Origin: Opitutales bacterium
GTDB taxonomy: Bacteria; Verrucomicrobiota; Verrucomicrobiia; Opitutales; JABSRG01
Direction: 5' to 3'
DNA length: 33,120 bases
Assembly (NCBI GenBank): GCA_028280845.1
Contig: JANQKZ010000021.1
Span: forward strand, 1 to 33,120
Position numbers and translations under genes: made by a program. Under the pieces are notes generated by a model. That model saw only the letters and a program-made list of their open reading frames with translations. It was not told where the DNA came from and ran no database searches. Within the stretch, counting starts at the first letter, position 1. The number at the start of each line of letters is the position of its first letter. This document shows positions 11,566 to 32,910 of the stretch, piece by piece.

Positions 11566-14004
11566 TTAGCCGAGGCCTTCTCTGGGATCGCGAGGGGCTT
11601 CGGTTTCGGCTAAGGGGTCCTCTTCTTCAGCATCTTGCACGCTGGGTTCGATGACCTTGGGCTCAGGCGTTTCATCCATCTTGGGATACTCGATGCGGGT
11701 ATGCAGCATGTTGAGCAGGGTAAACGAGAAGCTCTTTTTTATCTGAGTGATCTCCTTAAAGGTGATTGGGCAATCATCTAACTGGCCATCTTCCAGGCGG
11801 TCTTGAAAAATGCGATCGAGGAGCTCATCGATGGCGAGAGGGGTAACTTTCTTCAGGCTGCGGCTGGCGGCCTCAACGGAATCGGCAAAGAAAATAATAG
11901 CGCTCTCCTTAAATTTGGGCTTGGGTCCATCATAGCGGTAGGTACTTTCATCAACCTCCTCAGCCTTGATGGTGGGGGCTTCGGGGAAGGGGCTGCTGGT
12001 GCTACCGGACTTCCGTTTTTTCAGCGCTTCATAATAAAAATACTGAATGAGGGAGGTGCCATGATGTTGTCGGATGATCTCCATCAAAATACGGGGAAGT
12101 TTATGCTGGCGTGCGAGTTGCACCCCTTCCTTGACGTGGGCCTTAATGACCAGCGCGCTCATAGATGGGTTTTGAGCGAGGTGGGGGTTGATGCCGCCGC
12201 GTTGGTTTTCTGTGAAATACTCAGGTTTGACCAATTTGCCAATATCGTGGAAGAGGGATCCGACTCGACAGACGAGTGGGTTGGCTCCCACGTTGGCGGC
12301 CGCATTTTCAGCCAGGTTGGCGACCATCAGGCTATGGTGGTAAGATCCTGGTGCTTCAACCTGCATCCGGCGGAGGAGGGGGTGATTAAAATCCGTTAAC
12401 TCCAGCAGGGTAATCTGGGTGGTGACCTTAAAAATGTTTTCGAGGACCGGTAGCATACCCACTCCGATGATCCCGGTCAGGATCCCGGCAAGGAGTCCAA
12501 AGGCCATTTGCTGGGCGATAACGAGCAGGTTGACCTCTTGAAGCAGTCCCAGGAAGGCGGCCGACAAGGCCATACATACCCCGGCAAGGGTACCTGCCTT
12601 GACCACAGTGCTGCGCTTTCGAACGTCGAGACAGAAAAACACCGCAACAAAAGAGGAGACCAGGGCCGCGAAGAGTGGCTCAATGGTTCCCCCCTGCATG
12701 AGCGCGTAGAACAGGCTGACAATGATGGAGGTCAGGATGGCATAACGCGCACCGATCAGGAGGGTCACAAGGAGTGAGGCCAAGGCGACCGGAGCGACGA
12801 ATGGAAGGATCGCCAGGATGGCTGGTTGCGTAGAAAAGAGGGTGGTTTCTCCGATTTCGAGGATCAGCCGAATCAGTCCCAAATTGATGAGGATAGCGGT
12901 GATACAAAGGGCCAACCGGCGATTCTGACGACCCAGGCGGATATCACTAATCCGGATGTAAAGCACCGCGACGATGGATACGGCCAGAATGAGGATAAAC
13001 TTCTGGATCAGTGGGGAATCGAAGGCGAAGCCTTCTTTTTCTCGACGGATGATCTCCTCGCGGTAGGCCTTCAGCTTTTCCTGGTCGCGCTCGGTGACCA
13101 CGGTTCCCGGCTCCAGAATCGTGACCCCTTCGACCACGGTTTCAAAGACAGGGGCGACGGCGAGTTCAGCTTCTCGGATACTCGCCTCGGTGGCTTCCAG
13201 GTCGTAAATTAAGTTAGATTGCAGACCCGTGCGGAAAACGCCGAAAAGGGCCCGAGCGGTTTGAGCGCTGGCGAGGGCCCGGATTTGTTGATTGAGCTCG
13301 AAGGTGGCTTCGGCCACGGGTTGGAGGCCCACTGCTGCGGGCTGTCCGGTTGGGTCGATCACCGTAAACTGCATGATGTCTTCACGGGTGGCGGAGAACC
13401 CGGAATTCGCCTGCTCATAAATTCCGTCCTGGTATAGGTTTCTCAGGATCTCGAGTGCCTGAGCAAATAAGACCTTTCGGTCTTCGGCGGTGGAGTGGCG
13501 CAAGAGGGTCTCCACCTGCGCCGGAGAGATGCCAAAGCCGTCCTCCGTGAGGGCTGAGGCTGAAAAGGTGGCGATGGCCTCTTCCCGTGCTTTCCCTTCG
13601 AGTCCATCGATCTGGAGTTCAAGGATCTGCAGACTTTCCTCCAGCTGCCCCATATATTCAAAGAAATCGCGATAGGGCTGAAAACTGAGGCGGTGAACCG
13701 GAGGGACCTTGGTGCGGGCTTCTCGAATTTTTTCATCCCGGGCCAGCTGGCTTTCGTAGGCAAAACTGAACTCCGCCACAACCCGCGTCTGAGCCCGTTG
13801 GCCCGTCACCACGGGGGGCAGGGTTTTACTGAGGCCGATAAAACCGATCAACAGCACCAGCAGGGTGAAGCCAAAAAACAAAACGGAGCGAATAACCTGA
13901 CTGGTTTCGAAAAAAACCGTGGCGCGTGAGGGTTCTCCGTCCCTGCGGGAACGTTTGCGCGGAGCTTCGGATCGGCTCTTCTTTTTAAACCTGAAAAATC
14001 GCAT
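11566..14004 (-). CDS. pgpH: PgpH-type 7TM-HD phosphodiesterase (c-di-AMP)
   Basis: An 812-aa inner-membrane protein of the YqfF/PgpH family, whose studied members hydrolyse cyclic di-AMP to pApA. After a basic N-terminus there is one membrane helix (38-58), a long extracytoplasmic 7TMR-HDED-like domain (about 70-330), a block of about seven helices (333-520) and a cytoplasmic HD domain. HD signatures are visible: H556-H557, F-H-D-I-G-K at 585-590, H623, H647-H648 and D708. An acidic tail follows (775-812). The length fits the family. The upstream neighbour on the same strand, after 392 bp, is phoH, which commonly sits near pgpH and ybeY; no ybeY is seen here. The start has no Shine-Dalgarno but a pyrimidine-rich leader. 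Substrate is by family assignment only. Confidence 0.9.
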   Translation of the reverse strand: MRFFRFKKKSRSEAPRKRSRRDGEPSRATVFFETSQVIRSVLFFGFTLLVLLIGFIGLSKTLPPVVTGQRAQTRVVAEFSFAYESQLARDEKIREARTKVPPVHRLSFQPYRDFFEYMGQLEESLQILELQIDGLEGKAREEAIATFSASALTEDGFGISPAQVETLLRHSTAEDRKVLFAQALEILRNLYQDGIYEQANSGFSATREDIMQFTVIDPTGQPAAVGLQPVAEATFELNQQIRALASAQTARALFGVFRTGLQSNLIYDLEATEASIREAELAVAPVFETVVEGVTILEPGTVVTERDQEKLKAYREEIIRREKEGFAFDSPLIQKFILILAVSIVAVLYIRISDIRLGRQNRRLALCITAILINLGLIRLILEIGETTLFSTQPAILAILPFVAPVALASLLVTLLIGARYAILTSIIVSLFYALMQGGTIEPLFAALVSSFVAVFFCLDVRKRSTVVKAGTLAGVCMALSAAFLGLLQEVNLLVIAQQMAFGLLAGILTGIIGVGMLPVLENIFKVTTQITLLELTDFNHPLLRRMQVEAPGSYHHSLMVANLAENAAANVGANPLVCRVGSLFHDIGKLVKPEYFTENQRGGINPHLAQNPSMSALVIKAHVKEGVQLARQHKLPRILMEIIRQHHGTSLIQYFYYEALKKRKSGSTSSPFPEAPTIKAEEVDESTYRYDGPKPKFKESAIIFFADSVEAASRSLKKVTPLAIDELLDRIFQDRLEDGQLDDCPITFKEITQIKKSFSFTLLNMLHTRIEYPKMDETPEPKVIEPSVQDAEEEDPLAETEAPRDPREGLG

Positions 14005-16229: not shown

Positions 16230-17267
16230 ATGGCTGAAAGCTCTGACCAGCGCTCGTACTTTGATCTGCCGAAGGAGACCCAATGGGCCGGATATGTAGC
16301 TCTTGGGTTCGTTCTGTTTGTCATCTGGGACCAGTGGTATTGGTGGGGGAGTCGGGATGACTACAGCTTTGGTTACCTGGTGCCGGTTTTCGTTGGATAT
16401 GTCCTTTTTGAGCGATGGCCGGAGATATACCAGATCCTGCTGGGAGCCCCAGGATCTGAGGGTGAAAGTGAGCATGAGAAGGTCTGGGTGGGGTGGCGCA
16501 TATTCTGGGGGGTTTTGTTTGGGGCAGCGTTTTTCCTCGGTTTGCTCGTCTTTTTATTTGGGGCGGTCTTACGGGCTACACAAGGGGTTCAAAACCCGGC
16601 CTCCCTGTCGATCGCCTGGGGGTTTGCTTGGTTCCTGTTGAGTCTTGTTTATCTCATCAATGATCGCAGGGCGGATGGGGCTCCTGTCCGGCTGCAGCGG
16701 CGCCTGCGGCTCACCGCCCTGTTTTTGTTTCCCGCCTTTATCTGGCTGATCTCTGCCCCTTTATTGAATTTTATTGAGCGGGGTTTGAGCCTCTTTCTCC
16801 TGGATAAGGTAACCGCCGTGGTGTTCTTGGTCTTTGAGATTTTGGGTATACCAATCCAAAAGGAAGGAAATGTGCTGGTTCTGGGGTTCCTGGAAGGAGG
16901 AAGGCGGAATGAAGTCATGGTGGAGGACGCCTGTTCCGGGATCCGTTCCCTCATGGCTTGCCTGTTTGCCGGATCCTTCCTCGGTGCGGTATTTATGAAG
17001 CCGGTATGGAAAAAGGTGCTCCTCGTCGGATTGGCCATGCTCTTTGCGTTTTTCACCAACATTCTGCGGAGCCTCTTTTTGACGGCGTGGGCGTATAGGA
17101 ACGGGGCGGACTCTATCGCCGGAGCGGTGCATGACATCACCGGGTATGCGGTCCTCGGGCTCACCTGCGTGGGTTTGATTGCACTGTTACCTCTGATCAA
17201 TTTCCAATACTCGCTTGACGCCCTGGATGAAGAAGATGCATCGTCCGAGGCAACGGATACTTCCTAG
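16230..17267 (+). CDS. xrt: exosortase (PEP-CTERM sorting transpeptidase)
   Basis: A 345-aa multi-pass inner-membrane cysteine protease/transpeptidase of the EpsH/exosortase family that cuts PEP-CTERM proteins at the membrane. Catalytic residues are visible: C235 in E-D-A-C-S-G-I-R, R280 in N-I-L-R-S and H301 in G-A-V-H-D-I-T-G. There are hydrophobic helices from about 20 onwards, and a short acidic cytoplasmic tail (330-345). No EpsI (DUF3485) domain is fused to the C-terminus. The expected substrates in this window are the two PEP-CTERM proteins at 81-1262 and 1660-10905. No exopolysaccharide genes flank it; glgA follows after 15 bp and could be co-transcribed. The exact exosortase subtype cannot be assigned by eye. 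Confidence 0.92.
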   Translation: MAESSDQRSYFDLPKETQWAGYVALGFVLFVIWDQWYWWGSRDDYSFGYLVPVFVGYVLFERWPEIYQILLGAPGSEGESEHEKVWVGWRIFWGVLFGAAFFLGLLVFLFGAVLRATQGVQNPASLSIAWGFAWFLLSLVYLINDRRADGAPVRLQRRLRLTALFLFPAFIWLISAPLLNFIERGLSLFLLDKVTAVVFLVFEILGIPIQKEGNVLVLGFLEGGRRNEVMVEDACSGIRSLMACLFAGSFLGAVFMKPVWKKVLLVGLAMLFAFFTNILRSLFLTAWAYRNGADSIAGAVHDITGYAVLGLTCVGLIALLPLINFQYSLDALDEEDASSEATDTS

Positions 17268-30183: not shown

Positions 30184-30669
30184 ATGAACCCCTCTACTCC
30201 TCTCTCTTCATCCCCGACGTTAATAGGATGGAAGGAAGTCATTCACCTTCCCGAATGGGGTCTGCATTCGATCGTGGCCAAAGCGGATACGGGAGCCCGC
30301 AGCTCTGCCCTGGATGTTGTTCGAATAAAGGAAATTGAAAATGACCGGGTGGCCTTCTCTATGGTACTCAGCCGAAAGCGCCCCATGCTGACCTATGATC
30401 TGGAGGCCAAGATCTTTCGCCGGAAGAAAGTGAAATCGAGCAATGGCAAGGTCCAGGAGCGGTTCACTATCTTACAACATGTTGAAATCGGTGCTCTGAC
30501 AAAGGAGATTGAATTCAGTCTGGTGAACCGAAAGAAAATGATATGTCGGGTTCTGCTGGGGCGGGATGCGCTTCGGCCAGAGTTTCTCGTCCATCCTGAT
30601 GCCAAATATCTGATTAGCCGCCGTCGTCGGCCGCGGATCAGTCAAATTGTTCACAAAAAGCGAAAGTAG
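30184..30669 (+). CDS. RimB-like retropepsin-type / 'ATP-dependent Zn protease' family protein
   Basis: A 161-aa cytoplasmic protein of the family annotated as putative ATP-dependent zinc protease (COG4067). It carries the aspartic-protease-like motif K-A-D-T-G-A-R-S-S-A-L around D35 and a later L-L-G-R-D-A-L near 127-133, the layout of a single retropepsin-like fold. RimB of the Pseudomonas rimABK operon belongs here and modulates RimK. Only 4 bp separate it from the rimK-like gene, supporting the same partnership. No zinc ligand set is obvious, so the historic 'zinc protease' name may mislead. The C-terminus is very basic. Confidence 0.85.
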   Translation: MNPSTPLSSSPTLIGWKEVIHLPEWGLHSIVAKADTGARSSALDVVRIKEIENDRVAFSMVLSRKRPMLTYDLEAKIFRRKKVKSSNGKVQERFTILQHVEIGALTKEIEFSLVNRKKMICRVLLGRDALRPEFLVHPDAKYLISRRRRPRISQIVHKKRK

Positions 30670-30673
30670 CTCC

Positions 30674-31870
30674 ATGGTATCCAATCGTCCCCTGAAAATC
30701 GCAATTTTGTCGCGCGCTCCACGGATCTACAGCACGCGGCGTTTACGGGAAGCGGCTGAGCAACGTGGCCACCAGGTCAAGGTCTTGAACACGTTGAAAT
30801 TTGGCATGTTCGTCGAGTCCAAGGACCCGGATTTAATTTACAGTGGGCGCAGTATATCTGCCTATGATGCGATCATTCCAAGAATCGGGACATCGATTAG
30901 CTTTTATGGGGCCGCGGTTGTTCGTCAATTTGAGCAGATGGGAGTGTTCACCCTGAATTCATCGACAGCCATCTCGAATTCCCGGGACAAGCTACGGTCA
31001 TTGCAGATATTGAGCCGTCACGACATTGGAATTGGCAAGAGTGCGTTTGTACACCGCAAGGCGGATGTCCTGGATGCGATTGAAGAGGTCGGAGGAGCCC
31101 CGGTCATCATCAAGTTGTTAGAGGGAACGCAGGGGGTTGGGGTGATTCTGGCGGATACCGTGAAGGTGGCTGAGGCGATTGTAGAAACCCTCCAAAGCAC
31201 CAAACACAACGTGATGATCCAAAAGTTCGTGGCGGAGAGCCGTGGAAAAGATATTCGGGCGTTTGTGATCGGAGACCGTGTCGTGGCAGCGATGCGACGC
31301 CGAGCAAAGGGTGGTGAATTTCGAAGTAATGTACACCGTGGAGGATCAACTGAATCGGTTCAATTAGATGGGGAATATGAAAGGACCGCCGTTCGCGCAG
31401 CGCAGACCCTGGGTCTGCGGGTAGCGGGTGTGGATATGCTGGAAGGCGAGGATGGGCCTGTTATTATGGAGGTCAACTCCTCTCCGGGTCTGGAGGGAAT
31501 TGAGGCAGCATCGGGGGTGGACGTAGCCGGCGAGATTATCGATTATCTGGCTGAGCATATTCGATTTGGGGATGTTGATATCCGTCAACGGCTGGCCTTT
31601 GCCCGGGGCTTTGTGGTGTCTGAATTTACGGTTTCAGACAAGAGTTCTCTTGCTGGAAAAACGATATCCCGGAGCGGATTAAGCGAGCGGGGGATCATGA
31701 TCATGAGCATCAACCGAGGGAGTCAGCACTATCCTGCCCCGAAGGGAGACGATGACATTTTATCCGGAGATATTCTGATTTGCTATGGACCGAAAGTCGC
31801 TCTCCAAGAGTATATCCCGCTGACCGAACCCAAGCCCCGGAAGCGCAAAAAGAAAACAAAAAAACAATGA
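30674..31870 (+). CDS. rimK: RimK-type ATP-grasp glutamate ligase fused to an RCK_C domain
   Basis: A 398-aa enzyme. Residues about 6-296 form the RimK core that ligates glutamate to a protein carboxyl terminus (ribosomal protein S6 in E. coli) using ATP. Seen are K-I-A-I-L-S-R at the start, P-R-I-G-T-S-I-S-F-Y-G (69-79), the ATP-grasp loop K-L-L-E-G-T-Q-G-V-G-V (147-157), and Mg ligands in M-E-V-N-S-S-P-G-L-E-G-I-E (265-277). Residues about 314-380 match a TrkA-C/RCK_C ligand-binding domain (S-L-A-G-K-T-I...G-I-M-I-M-S-I-N-R-G...L-S-G-D-I-L-I-C-Y-G). The tail is lysine-rich (P-R-K-R-K-K-K-T-K-K). ATG 30674 is chosen over an upstream in-frame TTG. Overlaps the next gene by ATGA. Activity is confident; target protein and ligand are not known. 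Confidence 0.93.
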   Translation: MVSNRPLKIAILSRAPRIYSTRRLREAAEQRGHQVKVLNTLKFGMFVESKDPDLIYSGRSISAYDAIIPRIGTSISFYGAAVVRQFEQMGVFTLNSSTAISNSRDKLRSLQILSRHDIGIGKSAFVHRKADVLDAIEEVGGAPVIIKLLEGTQGVGVILADTVKVAEAIVETLQSTKHNVMIQKFVAESRGKDIRAFVIGDRVVAAMRRRAKGGEFRSNVHRGGSTESVQLDGEYERTAVRAAQTLGLRVAGVDMLEGEDGPVIMEVNSSPGLEGIEAASGVDVAGEIIDYLAEHIRFGDVDIRQRLAFARGFVVSEFTVSDKSSLAGKTISRSGLSERGIMIMSINRGSQHYPAPKGDDDILSGDILICYGPKVALQEYIPLTEPKPRKRKKKTKKQ

Positions 31871-32910
31871 ATGACTTTCAAATTGCCGGTGAATCGGTGG
31901 CCCCGGGTGAAACTCGAGATTTAAAAATAAAAATTTCGGAAACCTATACCGGAGATGAAATATATCTGCCGCTTCGGGTGATTCGTTCCTCTGAGGATGG
32001 TCCGACTCTATTTGTAACGGCGGCGGTTCACGGAGATGAAATTAACGGGACTGGTATTGTGCATGACCTCATGTTTGGGGATGCTTTAAAGCTGACCAGC
32101 GGGACGCTTATCCTGGTTCCGGTTGTCAATATATTCGGTTTCGAAAATCACGAGCGCTATCTGCCCGACCGCCGCGATTTAAACCGCTCCTTTCCGGGGA
32201 GTGAGGACGGGAGCATGGCGAGTCGGATTGCCTTCATTGTGATGACGGAAATCATCAAAAAGTCGGACTACGGGATTGATCTGCACTCGGCGGCCTTTCA
32301 ACGGACCAACTACCCCAATGTCAGAGGCGATTTTCGAGACAAAGGGGTCCGACGATTAGTCCGTCACTTTGCCACGTCTCTCAATGTGGACGGGAGGGGG
32401 CCGGATGGGGCCTTGCGTCGCGAGGCATGTAAAGCGGGCGTCCCGACCATAATTCTGGAAGCGGGTGAACCGTGGAAAATCGAACCGACGGTAATGAAGG
32501 TGGGGGTGCAGGGGATTCTGAATGTGCTCATTGGATTGGGCATGATGGAAGGAGCCATACAGAAGCCGGCATATTCTGCGAGAATTCAAAAGACAATTTG
32601 GATGCGAGCGGAGGTTGGCGGAATTTTAAGGTTTCAGGTTAACCCGGGGGATATCGTCGACAAGGGCGAGGTGGTGGCCACGAACTACAGCATCATGGGC
32701 GCGGTTCAAAACGAGCTGAAAGCCCCGGAAGATGGGATTGTCCTCAGCCTGGCTACCATGCCGGCCGTAAAACCGGGTGAACCGGTCTGTCATCTTGCGA
32801 TGCCGACAAAAAGCCTGGCGTCTATCCGTCGTGCCTTGGCCAAAGCACCGAAGCGCGGGCTCTACCGGAAGGTGGCTAAGGACTTGGCGTCGTCCGTCTC
32901 CCCCGCCTAG
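31867..32910 (+). CDS. succinylglutamate desuccinylase/aspartoacylase-family (M14-like) enzyme
   Basis: A 347-aa zinc hydrolase of the AstE/AspA family, related to M14 carboxypeptidases. Zinc ligands: H55 and E58 in A-A-V-H-G-D-E-I-N-G, and H140 in D-L-H-S-A. Substrate-type residues N106-R107 (D-L-N-R-S-F-P-G) and a catalytic-type glutamate E198 (I-L-E-A-G-E-P) follow. The last third (about 250-325) is a beta-barrel resembling a biotinyl/lipoyl fold, as in many members. Its ATG overlaps the rimK stop by 4 bp, so it is translated with RimK. Substrate is not predictable: free N-acyl amino acids, or glutamyl peptide bonds made by RimK, are both plausible. Confidence 0.9.
   Translation: MNDFQIAGESVAPGETRDLKIKISETYTGDEIYLPLRVIRSSEDGPTLFVTAAVHGDEINGTGIVHDLMFGDALKLTSGTLILVPVVNIFGFENHERYLPDRRDLNRSFPGSEDGSMASRIAFIVMTEIIKKSDYGIDLHSAAFQRTNYPNVRGDFRDKGVRRLVRHFATSLNVDGRGPDGALRREACKAGVPTIILEAGEPWKIEPTVMKVGVQGILNVLIGLGMMEGAIQKPAYSARIQKTIWMRAEVGGILRFQVNPGDIVDKGEVVATNYSIMGAVQNELKAPEDGIVLSLATMPAVKPGEPVCHLAMPTKSLASIRRALAKAPKRGLYRKVAKDLASSVSPA

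Follow-up and report, generated by a model that had tools for sequence, protein, structure and literature searches.

Results

A RimK-type ligase fused to an RCK_C domain in an operon-like locus

Near the end of a 33,120-nucleotide stretch from an Opitutales bacterium (contig JANQKZ010000021.1 of genome G000; this whole stretch is hereafter the window), we identified a gene, rimK-RCK_C, whose product joins the catalytic domains of a RimK-type ligase to a C-terminal RCK_C (TrkA_C) domain (Table 1). Residue numbers below follow the protein P0001, which starts at 30677, one codon past the ATG, so that 1 must be added for the ATG-start protein. Both catalytic domains score above the curated Pfam cut-offs (Rimk_N, residues 6-99, 133.8 bits; RimK ATP-grasp, residues 103-291, 201.8 bits), and the protein passes the NCBI RimK equivalog model NF007764 (345.6 bits, cut-off 331). 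Its AlphaFold model, with a mean predicted local distance difference test (pLDDT) of 85.4, matched Pseudomonas and E. coli RimK in Foldseek at a template-modeling score of ~0.95 on target length. By family membership, the product is a RimK-type alpha-L-glutamate ligase, with ligation activity predicted.

Table 1 Coordinates of the features discussed, in positions of the window
Feature	Position	Strand	Details
RimB-like retropepsin aspartic peptidase (P0003)	30184..30669	+	PF05618; motif DTGA (ADTGARSS)
rimK-RCK_C gene	30674..31870	+	ATG at 30674 read directly in the DNA; 398 aa
Rimk_N pre-ATP-grasp and RimK ATP-grasp catalytic domains	30692..31549	+	P0001 residues 6-291
RCK_C (TrkA_C) domain	31613..31819	+	P0001 residues ~313-381; Pfam, genome search, AlphaFold, fold comparison
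Lys/Arg-rich C-terminal tail	31820..31867	+	KPRKRKKKTKKQ; low-confidence structure in the model
AstE/AspA-type zinc amidohydrolase	31867..32910	+	PF24827, 115.3 bits
7TMR-HD (PgpH-type) phosphodiesterase	11566..14004	-	PF07698, PF07697, PF01966 (7TMR-HDED, 7TM, HD)
Giant autotransporter-like surface protein, open reading frame of 3114 aa	1660-11004	-	Six passenger-associated-transport repeats (PATR); adjoins PgpH
Exosortase EpsH-type gene	16230-17267		Domain search

The gene sits in a tight, operon-like arrangement between a rimB-like and an astE-like gene, with four bases separating the rimB-like stop from the rimK-RCK_C ATG and a 4-base overlap between the rimK-RCK_C stop and the astE-like start. 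The upstream product matches PF05618 at 71.2 bits (cut-off 27), and its best NCBIfam match is RimB (NF052261) at 83.8 bits. Because this falls short of the RimB equivalog cut-off of 200, we label it a predicted RimB-like peptidase and not RimB proper.

The C-terminus of RimK-RCK_C carries a genuine RCK_C domain. TrkA_C (PF02080) matched residues 315-378 at 44.9 bits (cut-off 27), and the same stretch (C23:31616-31813) was one of seven recovered in a whole-genome TrkA_C search. Modeled alone, the domain reached a mean pLDDT of 83.6 (~90-94 across the core), gave Foldseek E-values down to 1e-5, and aligned with the RCK_C domains of PH0236, KhtT, MthK, KtrA, and BusR at Z ~10-11. The original prediction of an RCK_C fold at RimK residues ~314-380 is thus borne out; it had assigned the whole of 31613-31870 to that domain, of which the part up to about 31819 stands, while the remainder is the Lys/Arg-rich tail. 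Most relatives have a basic tail as well. Fold comparison was of no use for telling the ligand apart, as c-di-AMP (cyclic di-adenosine monophosphate) binders and MthK score alike.

Conservation within the domain is pronounced at a few positions. Across 81 fused RimKs, i.e., the window protein and 80 relatives taken as the best matches among one-per-species genomes, R347, P355, D365, C369, and G371 are unchanged and E316 is kept in 80. C369 (codon 31781-31783) lies in the last RCK_C core strand, within the motif LLCFG, and its counterpart is not a cysteine in the aligned KtrA, KtrC, KhtT, and PH0236 or in the other RCK_C domains of the same genome. A residue that is both family-specific and invariant across phyla could point to sensing of a signal other than c-di-AMP, such as redox state through C369, a nucleotide, or a metal ion as in MthK, whose RCK_C is among the closest folds. 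MthK is Ca2+-gated. Against this, C369 is part of a core beta strand, where it may simply be buried packing, and we regard such sensing as improbable. The MthK and TrkA domains, although of the same fold (MthK at an equal Z level), sit in ion-channel gating rings together with RCK_N, whereas the window protein has no RCK_N and has a ligase as its partner.

The fusion is broadly distributed and linked to RimB-like and AstE-like genes

All 80 nearest relatives contain the RCK_C domain. These were drawn from genome collections that include metagenome-assembled genomes, and belong to Verrucomicrobiota, Planctomycetota, Myxococcota, Acidobacteriota, Gemmatimonadota, Hydrogenedentota, Actinomycetota, and a few Gammaproteobacteria, the nearest being Verrucomicrobiota of the Puniceicoccaceae/Opitutales. 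In a catalytic-domain tree, fused RimKs separated with full support (100/100) from the sampled plain RimKs, which were gammaproteobacterial only, and the gammaproteobacterial fusions fell within the fused group. Two gammaproteobacterial genomes (G264 and G205) carry plain RimK genes alongside the fused one, which suggests that the fused RimK has a separate role there.

Within the flanks available, a RimB-like gene accompanies the fusion in 64 of the 80 loci, and an AstE-like homologue lies beside it in 42. The only further recurring neighbors were a response-regulator-like gene in six loci and shadow open reading frames; no diadenylate cyclase, PgpH, or potassium transporter gene recurred across the 80 loci.

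The locus resembles, and departs from, previously described rim systems. It shares the pre-ATP-grasp and ATP-grasp domains of E. coli RimK and of the RimK of Pseudomonas RimABK (~54-58% identity to P. aeruginosa/gammaproteobacterial RimK), as well as a RimB-like retropepsin partner in the operon as in RimABK, but adds the RCK_C domain, the basic tail, and the AstE-like partner, and lacks RimA. A RimBK hybrid with RimB fused to the RimK N-terminus has been described, and rim genes are patchily distributed without following host phylogeny (PMC11957791). That hybrid is likewise a fusion on RimK, but in the window the fused part is a C-terminal RCK_C domain and the RimB-like peptidase is a separate gene.

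Distribution and pocket residues argue against c-di-AMP as the ligand

The original prediction held that the RCK_C domain might sense c-di-AMP. In that case, the dinucleotide would bind at the dimer interface as in KtrA or BusR and so couple potassium or osmotic status to RimK activity. Several observations are consistent with this. The closest PDB sequences to the domain include the c-di-AMP receptors KtrC, KtrA (4xtt), KhtT, and BusR, and the phosphodiesterase that was read as PgpH does have the expected 7TMR-HDED, 7TM, and HD domains. The genome was also checked for a diadenylate cyclase, as had been proposed, and a family search found a single one (C11:34404-34781, 76 bits). The refuting case named with the original prediction, a genome lacking such an enzyme, thus does not apply.

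This cyclase (locus L001:1459-2817, minus strand) combines PTS_EIIA_2, DacZ_P, and DAC domains, and its EIIA part contains an ALPH histidine motif. Cyclases of ~450 aa that score similarly are found across the order. By placing an EIIA(Ntr)-like domain on the enzyme that makes c-di-AMP, this architecture could tie c-di-AMP to phosphotransfer.

The genomic association between the fusion and c-di-AMP turnover does not extend further. The shared window had been taken as a link to PgpH; we reject it as such, as PgpH lies ~17 kb from rimK-RCK_C on the opposite strand and in another transcription unit, and no c-di-AMP or potassium genes recur beside the fusion. A diadenylate cyclase is present in 47 of 50 fusion genomes, but this co-occurrence was discarded as support because it is mere background: within the window's class, 134 of 141 genomes encode the cyclase and only 6 of 141 the fusion. 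Conversely, intact fusions occur in groups whose sampled genomes had no diadenylate cyclase, with a full-length fusion in 45 of 150 Microbacteriaceae genomes and a fusion in 3 of 274 Gammaproteobacteria against 0/150 and 0/274 for the cyclase (CD-NTase-type synthases were not searched for in either sample). The fusion is independent of the diadenylate cyclase.

Pocket residues tell a similar story. KtrA contacts c-di-AMP through I163, I164, D167, I168, R169, A170, N175, I176, and P191 (listed in a review, PMC7288161), and the BusR contacts are the same positions with residue numbers less ten (PMC8517857). Mapped by profile alignment (CpaA did not align by sequence), the KtrA contacts correspond, in the same order, to I330, S331, G334, L335, S336, E337, M341, I342, and G357 of the window protein. 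Comparison of these interface residues with known binders, another check that had been suggested, shows that the polar contacts are lost, with D167, R169, N175, and P191 replaced by G334, S336, M341, and G357, whereas hydrophobic I163, I168, and I176 are kept as I330, L335, and I342 and are I, L, or V in nearly all fused RimKs. An Asp or Asn at KtrA position 167, which the KtrA proteins of S. aureus and B. subtilis share with KtrC, KhtT, and BusR, is found in only 8 of the 81 fused RimKs (Gly in the window), and a one-residue deletion at KtrA Y172, before the second strand, is common to the whole family. Jointly, the polar pocket positions are unremarkable in conservation, 84% of random sets of domain positions being at least as conserved. 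The fused domain shares its fold, closest PDB sequence relatives, and hydrophobic pocket with the c-di-AMP-binding RCK_C domains of KtrA, KtrC, KhtT, BusR, and CpaA, but differs in its polar contacts, the family-wide deletion, the invariant cysteine, and its occurrence without a cyclase.

The same genome encodes a CPA2-type antiporter (C50 ~11741-12190, locus L005) with two RCK_C domains, the second of which, GADLRRKYGVNV, shows Asp, Arg, Tyr, and Asn where KtrA has its counterparts, as judged by eye. Because these residues are kept, the antiporter would be the better receptor candidate, judging from its sequence, if c-di-AMP acts through an RCK_C domain in this genome, which weighs further against the RimK domain in that role. 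On distribution and pocket residues together, we rejected c-di-AMP as the best reading for a general ligand, and consider it an improbable signal for RimK-RCK_C.

Ribosomal protein S6 is a doubtful substrate

RimK extends the acidic C-terminal tail of ribosomal protein S6 in E. coli and Pseudomonas. Unlike in those systems, the S6 of the window's genome ends in ...DKRVHRIFVESH immediately after the core strand, with no acidic C-terminal tail, and such a tail is likewise missing from S6 in all five of the order's other genomes that carry the fusion. At the S6 loci of the order (L128 and L107-L127), the protein ends at the core fold. Among the actinobacterial fusion genomes, too, several encode an S6 with a short, non-acidic end; the S6 of HTCC2148 ends in Glu-Glu. 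The step from a nucleotide-sensing RimK to ribosome modification, to which the original prediction led, is thus doubtful. Because the genome's S6 lacks an acidic tail, we file the window protein as a RimK-family ligase and not as an S6 ligase. RimB cleaves poly-glutamate and stimulates the synthesis of free poly-alpha-glutamate by RimK (PMC11957791). For the window enzyme, the predicted product would more likely be poly-glutamate in free form or a glutamylated protein that is not S6.

A proposed dimerizing module on a putative poly-glutamate ligase

We infer the activity, product, dimerization, and regulation of RimK-RCK_C as follows. The RimK-type ligase would make alpha-linked glutamate chains, either free or on a protein, which the co-transcribed RimB-like peptidase would trim, and the AstE-like hydrolase may handle a product that is a small amide. 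In this view, RCK_C would pair ligase subunits and probably set their activity through the dimer interface. Any signal received through it would not be c-di-AMP bound in the manner of KtrA or BusR, and the role of the domain may be purely structural. We give about even chances to this reading, in which RCK_C is a dimerizing, probably allosteric part of a poly-glutamate ligase coupled to RimB and has either no ligand or one that is not c-di-AMP bound in that mode.

Four points weigh against it. The AlphaFold models are of single chains, and both dimerization and pocket geometry are deduced. Most relatives (55/81) keep an Arg at the position of KtrA R169, where the window has Ser. Adenine binding in RCK_C pockets depends in part on backbone and hydrophobic contacts, and positions 330, 335, and 342 of the hydrophobic pocket are kept. 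Finally, the plain RimK of E. coli and Pseudomonas has no RCK_C and yet functions as a tetramer, so that the role of the domain could lie in partner binding and not in activity.

In the main rival, RCK_C senses nothing and acts purely as an oligomerization or partner-docking part; the docked partner might be, e.g., the RimB-like peptidase or the ribosome, with the basic tail assisting. The variable polar pocket positions, the frequency of RimB-like genes beside the fusion, and the basic tail in most relatives would fit such a role. Yet plain RimK needs no RCK_C domain to form tetramers or to bind RimB (PMC10092738), and the near-invariance of E316, R347, and C369 seems to exceed what packing needs, even if some of these residues are generic to TrkA_C. 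We hold a purely oligomerizing or docking role to be unlikely, albeit the most serious competitor to a dimerizing, probably allosteric module.

Significance for the RimK family

Fused RimK-RCK_C proteins span at least seven phyla, and a search of open-licence papers for RimK with TrkA-C or c-di-AMP found none describing the fusion. If poly-alpha-glutamate is the product, the annotation "30S ribosomal protein S6--L-glutamate ligase" is misleading for this branch. More tentatively, the fused proteins could form a widespread family of ligand-gated poly-alpha-glutamate synthetases that make or trim the polymer, together with RimB-like and AstE-like partners, when they receive a signal from an ion, redox state, or a nucleotide, perhaps via C369; we treat this as a speculative extension that is doubtful at present. 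In Pseudomonas, RimK is known to be regulated through RimA, RimB, and cyclic di-guanosine monophosphate. If the RCK_C domain is a sensor, RimK would gain a built-in control, and a domain whose other known settings are ion transport and BusR would control an amino-acid polymerase.
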